Positions 532 to 59,575 of a stretch of DNA of 64,000 nt are shown one piece after another. A program made the translations under genes and the position numbers. This stretch comes from Alviniconcha marisindica (Eukaryota; Mollusca; Gastropoda; Provannidae), in contig JABMCL010000629.1 in NCBI GenBank assembly GCA_018857735.1, forward strand, positions 693,501 through 757,500, in the 5' to 3' direction. Numbering within the stretch: the stretch's first letter is position 1; every line of letters begins with the position of its first letter. The notes under the pieces were generated by a model. It did not search any database. It was not told where the DNA came from and worked only from the letters and a program-made list of their open reading frames with translations.

Positions 532-3500
532 GTCAGCGGAAAGGGCTTTGGGAACTTAGCATGGGCAGCAGTCTTTTTAAACTGTGTAAATTAAGCTTCA
601 TGTAGTCACAATGCTTGTGTGTTCCGGTGCCTGTGTGCGTGTGTGTGTGCTTAGAATAGTCTTCTACAGACAAGATTTTGCGCTTTACAAATACTGTTAT
701 CGTTATAAACAAGGTCTGTCTTACAAAGAAAGACGTCTGTCTGTGTGTCCACGTCAGCACCATGAATGATTTGGGGCTCAGCCTGCTGACCTGTGAACCT
801 GTTGAGATGAAAGTTGCTATGAGGATTTCTTGGGACACAAGAGTCCTATGTACCTGTAATATGTGGAACACCTCTCCCCTAGTTAACACAGTAACGCTAA
901 AGCAAATGATTTGCTCTGTAGGGTAAAGGGAGGGTGATATAACTGGGGCCCCATCTCCCAGGTATCACCACGGTCTACTTGTTAGCACTCTGACATTTGT
1001 GCCAGCAAACACAAGTTCAAATCTCAGTGGAACTTAAAACAGGTTTCTCCCTTCTCTTTTTTCTTCTTTTGTATTCATCTGCTGCGAACACCAACATCTC
1101 TAAACAGCTTTGTGAATCGGCAACACATGATGTGGATGTGGATGCAGAAACAGATGCACAGAATACATTTTATATTACATTGATGTATTACAATACATGC
1201 ACAATCCCATGGTCTGTTGACCTGTGTTTAGGTGGCGTGTCAAGACCAGGTGTGTGTATGTGCACAACCCCAACATCTGTTAGCCTGTGTTCAGGTGTGT
1301 GTGTGTGTGTATATATATATATGGGTACAACCCGAAGGTCTATTGACCTGTGTTCAGGTGGCATGTCAAGACTGGGTGTGTGGGTGTACATACACAAACG
1401 CATCATCTGTTGACATATGTTCAGGTGGCGTGTCAAGACCAGGAGTGTGTGTGTACATACACAACCCCAACATCTGTTGACCTGTGTTCAGGTGGTGTGT
1501 CAAGACCAGAAGTGTGTGTGTACATACACAACCCCAACATCTGTTGACCTGTGTTCAGGTGGCATGTCAAGACCAGGAGTGTGTGTGTACATACACAACC
1601 CCAACATCTGTTGACCTGTGTTCAGGTGGTGTGTCAAGACCAGGAGCGTGTGTATGTGTGTGTATACACAACCCCAACATCTGTTGACCTGTGTTCAGGT
1701 GGTGTGTCAAGACCAGGAGCGTGTGTGTGTGTGTATACACAACCCCAACATCTGTTGACCTGTGTTCAGGTGGCGTGTCAAGACCAGGAGGAAGATGAAG
1801 ACGAGCAGCAGGCGGAGTACGACGGGATGCTGATCGAGTCAGCGGGTGACGTTCTGCCCGTCATGGCCAGACTGATGGGGGGCCCCACCTTCTCTCCCTT
1901 CTTCGCCTCCTTCCTCACAGACCTGCTCAAACGATTGGTTAGTGTCTGCCTTGACCTCGCACGCTGGTGTTGTAAGTTTTTTTGCATCTGTTTCTGTGTG
2001 CTACATAACGCAACATTTTGACAGTGTTCTCATATCATGTTGCTCTGAACAGACATACGATAAAATAAAAACAAACAAAAAATTGAGGGTTTTATCTCTT
2101 CTGGAAAGATGTTTGTCTTTCAAAATTTGCAGTGCTGTTGCAAGCAACTTTTGTTGCTTGATTTTATGGCCGTTTTAGTTTTCACCATGCCCAGATGCTG
2201 AACTACTGCTGGGGCTATCTTGGACACTTTCTGTGTTTAATGTTCTGTTGACTAAACAGGTACTACATCATATACATCAGATGTCATAAAAACATGGTGC
2301 AGTGTGTGTGAACTCAGTGAGCTGAATGTGAATGCCTTTTGGGCCCAATATAAATTGACACTATGATGTGGTTGTGAAAAAATTGATTTGCAGCAGTGGT
2401 ACATTTCAGAAACAAACAAGCTCAACAGCAGAGAAGTCCTTTGCGGTAGGCACGCTAGCGGAAGTGATTGAGTCGATCGGTGAAACAACGGTGGTGTTTG
2501 TGGACACCCTGTACCCAGTGTTTCTGCGCATGGTGAAGGACGAAGATGATGAAGTTCGCAGTAACGCTGTCTTTGCTTTGGGCATGCTGGCCGCGAATGG
2601 GGGAGACAAAATGAAAGCGTGAGTCTGGATTTGGATTAAAAAGCCTACTGGTACTGTGAGTCTGAGGGATGTTTTTTTCATAAATTTTCACATAATTATG
2701 GAACTGCTTCTGTGCTAATTGCTCAGTGTTAGCTTGTTTATTTGGTTACAGTTTTGGTTATTAATAGCAAGGCTAAGATATACTTTTTAACTGTGCATAA
2801 GATCAGCAGGGAACTTGCATTGCAATTTTGGATTTGAGCATTATAAGCTTCTTTTCAGACCGAAAAGCTGATGTGTCTGTTGTTTACCTTTGGGTTGTGT
2901 TCTTTTTTGAAGATGCGTCCAGTTTAACCTGTCCTTTTTTGTTTAATAATAAAAAACAAAGTGACTTGTAATACAAAAATATGCAGAGTGCATGAGACAA
3001 AAATGTATATGGTGGTGTCCTTGCAGCAGTCATTTAAGTGAGGTTGTAAACTGTGTTATTGTGTGTGAGAGTGCCCATGTGTGTGTGTGAGAGAGTGTGT
3101 GTGTGTGTGTGAGAGAGAGAGAGAGTGTGTGTGTGTGAAAGAGAGAGAGAGAGAGTGTGTGTGTTTAGATTTTGTGTTTTATGACTAATTTTACAGTTTT
3201 AGATGTATGTGGCCATGTCCCTGCTGCAGCAAACATTTATTAGTCATTTATGGTCTTGTTACACACAACTGTTTCAGTCGTCACCCGGACATCCTGAAGC
3301 TGATGCTGGAGATGATGGCTGGTGAGCAGAACGTGCGAGTGATGGACAACATGTGTGCTGCCAACTTTGCTGTGCGGGGGCCAAAAATCGGGGGGAAAAA
3401 AGGGGTTTTTGGGGGGTGGGACCAATTCGGCAAATCTGCCTTTGGAATACGTGAGACTGCACTCTTCCTGTCCTTGTCTTTTTTCTTGCCATCTGCATTC

Positions 3501-58168: not shown

Positions 58169-59575
58169 TTACGTCACCACCATAAACACGATGAAGGTGA
58201 GGCAGCTGAAGATGTTGATGCTGAGAGTGAGAAGGAAACACGTACTGTCCAAAGTCTGCGACAGCAACCGTCTGTCCTGAGGCGCCAAGAGCCTGACCCT
58301 TCTTATCAGCCGCCAGACCTTCTGTCCATCACTGAAACCTGGTGAGGTTCTCTTTCCGCCCCTGTCTGTCACCTCCTTGGCAGCAGACAAGCCACTGAAT
58401 CCTGTCGCTGAAGGAGCATCGGTGTCGGGAAAGGAGACGGTCGGGTCGTTGGTGGTCGAAGAGCACTCGGTGTCAGAGGTCGCGCTTGAGGACACTGCTG
58501 ACTGAGGTCTGAAGTTCGAACCCGAAGAATGAGACATTATCTTACTTTCTGTAGACAGTGAACTGTAAGGGTGGGGACTGCTTAGGTCGGAACAAGACGA
58601 GTCCCCGCCGAAGATGAAGACGATGACGGCGGCCATGGCGATGGAGCACGCGCTAAGGAGCATCTGAACGGCCACGTAGACGCTGAAGAGACACAGTGAG
58701 TCTGAGTTTTGGGGCAGCGAGTCGTTGATGAGCGACATGAAGACAGCGAAGGACAGGAAGACCGTGACGCTGACCGTCATCTTCTCCCCAGACTCCACGG
58801 GCAGCAAGAACACCAGGCAGTTCATCAGCGACAGCAGCACGATGGGCAGGATGATGTTGACCACGTAGAACAGCACTTTCCGCTTCAGTGTGAACTGGAA
58901 TTTCACAACCCAGTAACCAGAGGTTCTGAGCTCATACACGGCCTCAGTGCGGACAAGCGTCCACTCAGGATGGGCCCGCGTGTCCGTGACATCAAAGGCC
59001 GGGTCATTGAAAGTCGCATTGATAACCGATCGGTCGCCAGACCAGGATATAATGTCTATGGAACACGTCTGAGTGTCCAGGGGGTAGTGAGAGATGTCGA
59101 TGGAACAGAAAGTCTGAAACAGCCCTCCGGGGTACCACGAGATCTTTCCGTCATTCCTGGCGGTGAGCTTGATTTTCTGGTCCTCGAGCTGGTCCAGCCT
59201 GGTGACGGTGTTGAAGACGACGAGATCGGGTCGCCATAGCATGCTGGACGACAGGAGGAGGAGCTTGTAAGGGTGTTCCCCAACGTCCCAGGTCAGCAAG
59301 CGGTCGTGCCAGTTGACGGTGAGCCAGCCGAAGGACACCAGCGTCTGCTGCTTCATGTCCAGAGCGATAAAGCTGCTGATGCCGAGAGACACAGACAAGT
59401 ACAGAGGGCGAGAAGAGTTCAAAACGGGACGAACCAGAGGGTCGTAGCTCTTTAGCAGCACCTGGCGAATAAAGTAACTCTCGTTCTGCTCTGCAGCCTG
59501 GCAACCTGATGTCAACACCACGATCTGAATGCCCGTCAAGAGCAACGAGAAGGCTCCGTATGTATACCTCTGCAT
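58169..59575 (-). CDS. Nicotinic acetylcholine receptor-like subunit, intronless
   Basis: A 468-aa Cys-loop ligand-gated ion channel subunit in one exon, starting MQRYTYGAFSLLLTG with a likely signal peptide to about residue 25. The Cys-loop is C157 to C171 with the standard 13 residues between (SIDISHYPLDTQT). Agonist-site loops include WHDRLLTWD (loop D) and LWRPDLVVFN (loop A). M1 is ~234-259 and M2 follows GEK (263-265), whose Glu indicates a cation pore. M3 is ~294-322, with a Ser/Thr-rich cytoplasmic loop and M4 ~445-467. The vicinal Cys pair of alpha subunits is absent from loop C (RTSGYWVVKFQF). Vertebrate nAChR genes have several introns, so the single exon suggests a retrocopy, as in molluscan receptor expansions. 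The 3' end has been tandemly duplicated downstream. Confidence 0.93.
   Translation of the reverse strand: MQRYTYGAFSLLLTGIQIVVLTSGCQAAEQNESYFIRQVLLKSYDPLVRPVLNSSRPLYLSVSLGISSFIALDMKQQTLVSFGWLTVNWHDRLLTWDVGEHPYKLLLLSSSMLWRPDLVVFNTVTRLDQLEDQKIKLTARNDGKISWYPGGLFQTFCSIDISHYPLDTQTCSIDIISWSGDRSVINATFNDPAFDVTDTRAHPEWTLVRTEAVYELRTSGYWVVKFQFTLKRKVLFYVVNIILPIVLLSLMNCLVFLLPVESGEKMTVSVTVFLSFAVFMSLINDSLPQNSDSLCLFSVYVAVQMLLSACSIAMAAVIVFIFGGDSSCSDLSSPHPYSSLSTESKIMSHSSGSNFRPQSAVSSSATSDTECSSTTNDPTVSFPDTDAPSATGFSGLSAAKEVTDRGGKRTSPGFSDGQKVWRLIRRVRLLAPQDRRLLSQTLDSTCFLLTLSINIFSCLTFIVFMVVT

Follow-up and report, generated by a model that had tools for sequence, protein, structure and literature searches.

Mirage-type minisatellites at exon edges, with a relative at a stop codon, in a 64,000-nt window of the gastropod Alviniconcha marisindica

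Mirages are minisatellites, described in lancelets, whose repeat unit spans an exon-intron boundary and carries AG or GT dinucleotides able to act as cryptic splice sites. The pertinent sections of two reports place them in the globins BflGb6 and BflGb9 (PMC3087553) and in Adh (Adh3) and TnC, with similar imperfect repeats in PGBD5 (PMC3902484). According to these sections either boundary of an exon can be duplicated, AG or GT is present in many, though not all, repeats, and reverse transcription PCR suggests regular splicing (PMC3087553, PMC3902484). Mirages seemingly do not interfere with regular splicing and have been suggested as a source from which new introns could form (PMC3087553). Here we describe six similar features in a stretch of 64,000 nucleotides (nt) from A. 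marisindica (assembly GCA_018857735.1, contig JABMCL010000629.1, positions 693,501 to 757,500 of the forward strand), referred to below as the window. They lie in IPO4, in HERPUD and in a Cys-loop receptor gene, and are most simply understood as a genuine and dense group of minisatellites of the mirage type, a known kind, together with a relative at a stop codon. The original prediction, made from the letters of this DNA, stated that no named class was known for them; this was wrong, since their features match those reported for lancelet mirages (PMC3087553, PMC3902484).

In five tandem arrays and one lone duplication, the repeated segment includes the gene's own coding/non-coding edge. All six had been predicted and, with small corrections, all six were recovered with a probe spanning each junction, so that their anatomy is established. 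Array extents were taken from Tandem Repeats Finder (TRF) and copy counts from the probes, with the genuine copy counted in; exon edges are predicted from splice signals, open frames and homology. The window takes in the 3' part of IPO4 (plus strand, stop codon near 5212), which was recognized by alignment to importin-4 in the PDB. Its acceptor array (1194-1790) has nine copies (1211-1789) of a 67-nt unit, spaced 63-73 nt apart, and ends in an exon at 1770-1935 whose first 21 nt lie inside the repeat unit. This exon, at first called exon 2, is the second only within the window. Its 21 repeated letters encode VACQDQE, aligned with TACQDTDE of importin-4, and because the exon part of the unit is conserved coding sequence, the array copied the exon; the exon origin of this unit is established.

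HERPUD, also on the plus strand (26941-43946, eight predicted exons, matched in part by human HERPUD2), contains four of the features. Exon 3, which would occupy 33125-33235 assuming that the first donor is used, leads into a donor array at 33212-33739, with 11 copies of a 45-nt unit at a spacing of mostly 45 nt. Exon 6 (38614-38910) follows an acceptor array at 37437-38623, comprising 17 copies (37451-38623) of a 60/78-nt unit spaced 60-79 nt apart. Similarly, exon 8, which includes the stop codon (43782-43946), follows an acceptor array at 42889-43791, with 22 copies of a 42-nt unit spaced 38-47 nt apart. At exon 7 (40994-41171) an 83-nt segment holding the donor and the start of intron 7 (41149-41231) has a lone extra copy at 41481-41570 of that intron, 332 nt downstream and at an edit distance of 17 from the genuine segment. 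HERPUD introns measure 489-3310 nt, those with arrays 2231-2610 nt.

The receptor gene, of the Cys-loop (nicotinic-like) type, is a single open frame on the minus strand (58169-59575, the stop codon ending at 58169), with matches to Neur_chan_LBD (1.3e-36) and Neur_chan_memb (3.1e-18) in Pfam and to nAChR alpha-7 in the PDB (1e-50). The array at its stop-codon end (57460-58225, minus strand) has a unit of 66-69 nt, formed by the final 57 nt of coding sequence, stop codon included, and 9 nt of 3' sequence. Its copies decay with distance from the gene: after the genuine copy come five near-identical 66-nt copies (1-4 edits), followed by five that have decayed (10-25 edits), the series extending to about 57460. 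The unit is presumed to hold the end of the fourth transmembrane segment (TM4), the Pfam and PDB alignments stopping short of that part.

The amount of exon sequence in each unit varies, from 57 nt in the receptor through 24 nt in HERPUD exon 3 and 21 nt in IPO4 to just 10 and 8 nt in exons 6 and 8. Comparison of the units of 42 TRF clusters with the exons by BLAST gave E-values below 1e-4 only for IPO4, exon 3, two receptor clusters and two arrays within coding exons (HERPUD exons 5 and 7), while five other clusters had exon matches of just 11-16 nt (E 0.004-0.05). This bears out the claim that other minisatellites here lack exon similarity; the proposal that the remaining arrays, too, derive from exons is rejected by the same comparison. 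The exon 6 and exon 8 units gave no match to their exons at E 0.05, their exon share being too short for BLAST, and these two cases therefore rest on intron-side co-linearity. The genuine boundary had also been said to be terminal or near-terminal, and in every case the presumed true edge is indeed the copy at the exon-side end. However, any duplication across one edge leaves an intact edge on the exon side, so this position adds no further evidence.

The window holds other repeats as well. Two tandem repeats lie wholly within HERPUD coding exons and are open in frame, one of MPMMGG type in exon 5 (36175-36282) and one rich in glutamine in exon 7 (41046-41120). An inverted repeat in HERPUD intron 3 (33777-34051) starts directly after the exon 3 array; its 103-nt arms (33777-33879 and 33949-34051) are 96% complementary, with a smaller pair inside, and it may be the remnant of a small mobile element. 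The window has two identical copies of a 24-nt piece (CTATCCTTGAGTATTAAAGTTTTC), at 39129-39152 on the plus strand and at 57631-57654 on the minus strand, the latter within the decayed part of the receptor array. No such pair is expected by chance (100 shuffles), and it is perhaps the end of a dispersed element.

In common with lancelet mirages, as the cited sections describe them, these features have units in the range of 10 to 160 nt, AG or GT in many repeats and the authentic boundary beside its duplicates (PMC3087553, PMC3902484). The unit spans a predicted exon-intron boundary in the IPO4 array and in those of HERPUD exons 3, 6 and 8, weakly so in the last two, while exon 7 has one extra copy only. 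The AG or GT of the copies could act as cryptic splice sites. The receptor array is mirage-like in its working rather than by the letter, since its unit straddles no splice boundary but the stop codon of a gene with one open frame. The present features differ from the lancelet cases in that one gene, HERPUD, has four affected boundaries (three with arrays, one with a duplication), in copy numbers of up to 22 and in the array placed over a stop codon. A precedent for a donor array, confined to a single donor case, is reportedly the human IFI6 minisatellite, which is said to supply splice donors as the HERPUD exon 3 array does. Intron gain by tandem genomic duplication of AGGT segments, as outlined in parts of PMC3443670, resembles the present features in multiplying splice signals and in that it can be silent in the mRNA; there, a duplication within an exon gives rise to a new intron, whereas here the duplication straddles an existing edge. 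A C. elegans minisatellite linked to alternative splicing was considered as the class and not adopted: its repeats lie in introns flanking alternate exons and, in the relevant portion of PMC4039745, are not said to copy a boundary.

We consider it likely that these are mirage-type minisatellites produced by ordinary tandem-repeat growth and tolerated at gene edges. The window is rich in minisatellites, with 42 TRF clusters of period at least 15 nt. Merging four groups by hand and dropping the two clusters wholly within coding exons leaves 34 non-coding arrays, which cover 15,621 of the 64,000 bases, roughly one quarter. Where tandem repeats are expanding throughout a genome, slippage or unequal exchange would now and then duplicate a segment straddling an edge, and such a duplicate could expand into an array. 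The exon-side end of the array would keep one intact edge, and the mRNA would be unchanged if splicing used that copy. When flanking introns are large, splicing favours the sites nearest across the exon, according to the pertinent section of PMC9225289; in genes with long introns such a preference would leave the decoys, that is, the copies of a site other than the genuine one, silenced or mostly ignored. In the receptor the first stop codon would be used, later copies forming 3' sequence. The arrays would then be nearly neutral.

The decoys with intact AG or GT are established. The AG is kept in 8/8 decoys of IPO4, in 16/16 of exon 6 and in 18/21 of exon 8, and the GT in all 10 decoys, and thus all 11 copies, of exon 3. 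Intact dinucleotides are expected if decoys are rarely used. Splicing at a decoy would leave the exon open and in frame in 8/10 cases at exon 3 and in 2/16 at exon 6, falling to 1/8 at IPO4 (after manual correction of a script offset of one base) and to 0/19 of those tested at exon 8. The 'added' lengths listed for IPO4 in this test are 1 nt short and its genuine-site row therefore reads out of frame. The in-frame repeats wholly inside exons 5 and 7 fit filtering by effect on the protein. In IPO4 (Spearman 0.93), the receptor (0.87) and exon 8 (0.63), copies differ more from the array medoid the further they lie from the exon. In all five edge arrays, the only arrays so compared, the copy at the exon end resembles the medoid more closely than does the copy at the far end.

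Several observations weigh against growth and tolerance as the whole explanation. The medoid gradient is not significant in exon 3 (0.55, p 0.08) and is absent in exon 6 (-0.11), so that a general decay away from the exon is rejected. Some tests described below give a nominal excess of arrays at edges, unexpected under pure tolerance. To judge by its reading frame, the exon 3 array may be coding, with a repeat of 15 residues, and exon 6 may begin 60 or 138 nt earlier, at an upstream acceptor located at 38554 or 38476, respectively. Finally, with just 10 and 8 shared letters, the edges of exons 6 and 8 may have shifted into arrays already present in the intron instead of giving rise to them.

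The last of these points leads to an alternative that we hold to be unlikely, namely that the arrays were born in introns and that the splice site later shifted into the last copy, the exon thereby gaining array letters. Consistent with it, the short exon shares of exons 6 and 8 fall in protein stretches outside the parts matching human HERPUD2, and the exon 6 acceptor reads TGTAG while its decoys read CAG. It misfits IPO4, where the exon letters encode residues conserved with importin-4, and it is less likely for the receptor if, as presumed, the unit includes the end of TM4.

It is also conceivable, though improbable in our judgement, that the repeats are functional and that extra sites are used to vary exon length, exon 3 behaving as a coding variable number tandem repeat and exon 6 acquiring an optional extension of 20 or 46 residues. 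At exon 3 the first nine donors, the genuine one included, are in frame and open, and the one change in unit length, of 6 nt, preserves the frame; at exon 6 the last two decoys are in frame and open, giving three candidate in-frame acceptors. The scarcity of open, in-frame decoys at exon 8, IPO4 and exon 6 argues the other way.

A third alternative places the cause in the edges themselves: splice-signal tracts (GT-rich or pyrimidine runs, AG/GT microhomology) or transcription-linked breaks would favour the birth of arrays there. This was assessed against a list of 44 edges, made up of 37 splice edges and the starts and stops of the four genes identified. The list is incomplete, the edges of a cryptochrome/photolyase-like gene being approximate and part of its exons missed, and further genes are possible; unseen edges would raise the expected numbers. 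The IPO4 edge at 3375 is a guess, and two entries were slightly off in the tests, the IPO4 acceptor (1769 for 1770) and the receptor stop (58171 for 58169), the arrays still containing both. A comparison with other placements, of the kind that the original prediction proposed and here made within the window, gave no excess at edges. Edges were scored for a copy within 1.5 kb, with every 7th non-coding position at least 20 nt from an edge as control (444 of low complexity being skipped). Only 6 of the 44 edges (13.6%) have such a copy, below the background of 26.3% among 7698 control positions, and in its plain form the idea that edge copies are commoner than copies elsewhere is rejected. Similarly, arrays take up 200 of the 1760 non-coding bases that lie 40 nt or less from an edge (11%), compared with 27% of all non-coding bases.

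This control is harsh, because expanded arrays multiply the positions that they contribute. With each array collapsed to one copy, 4.9% of edges would be expected to score against the 6/44 seen (nominal P 0.020); for HERPUD only, the figures are 4/16 edges against 9.2% (P 0.053). Counted by arrays, 5 of 34 contain an edge where 0.71 (strict threshold) or 1.19 (loose) would be expected (P 0.0008 and 0.0075), as do 5 of the 19 arrays with at least five copies (0.53 and 0.80 expected, P 0.0002 and 0.0014) and 3 of the 11 in HERPUD (0.49 expected, P 0.013). The loose figures are the fairer, since the strict threshold (8 nt) coincides with the smallest overlap observed. A true excess at edges is possible but unproven, because the window was singled out for this very pattern. 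The original prediction had left the choice between one amplifying mechanism and tolerance: tolerance fits, while an edge-targeting mechanism is not established, its support coming from the collapsed and seeding comparisons in a window chosen post hoc. The receptor array, which has no splice site, also speaks against it, and overall we regard such targeting as quite improbable. A stronger proposition seems to us very doubtful: that in an animal other than a lancelet, minisatellites are seeded at exon edges and at a stop-codon end severalfold over the per-site background, such edges being mutational hot spots with a steady output of spare splice sites and coding repeats. An assembly artefact, with copies or copy numbers made by a misassembled edge, is extremely improbable: parts of the lancelet reports state that mirage copy numbers vary between assemblies and that one globin mirage was aberrantly assembled in a draft, and the window has an error-like patch near 3375-3450, but the copies differ from one another, their divergence grows significantly with distance from the exon in three of the five arrays, and the lancelet PGBD5 repeats are said there to be supported by re-sequencing.

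That patch, a series of homopolymer runs (ggggccaaaaatcggggggaaaaaaggggtttttgggggg) at 3375-3450, is entered by an IPO4 exon where the protein would be expected to go on, and may be a sequencing or assembly error. The fourth gene identified, on the minus strand at about 17.4-26.3 kb, is the cryptochrome/photolyase-like one. Its photolyase-domain protein (25283-26331, minus strand) carries a long extension at its N-terminus, and the PDB chain that it matches best is named Cryptochrome2. As we take Cryptochrome2 to be a plant protein, that of the window is possibly a plant-like cryptochrome. Rfam at gathering scores and ARAGORN gave no matches in the window, nor did scans of viral contigs with a dispersed repeat and with the receptor, while NCBIfam searches of six other frames gave a single match, under its cut-off.

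Occurrence outside lancelets would be an extension of range, and the phenomenon would then be wider than the literature searched showed, further mirage literature being in existence. Mirages are natural experiments in splice-site choice, in which up to 21 similar acceptors precede one exon and differ in little but position. The density seen here, with four HERPUD boundaries, one of IPO4 and one stop codon within 57 kb, would ease a genome-wide count, and such a count would bear on whether arrays of this kind feed intron gain, exon lengthening or coding repeats.
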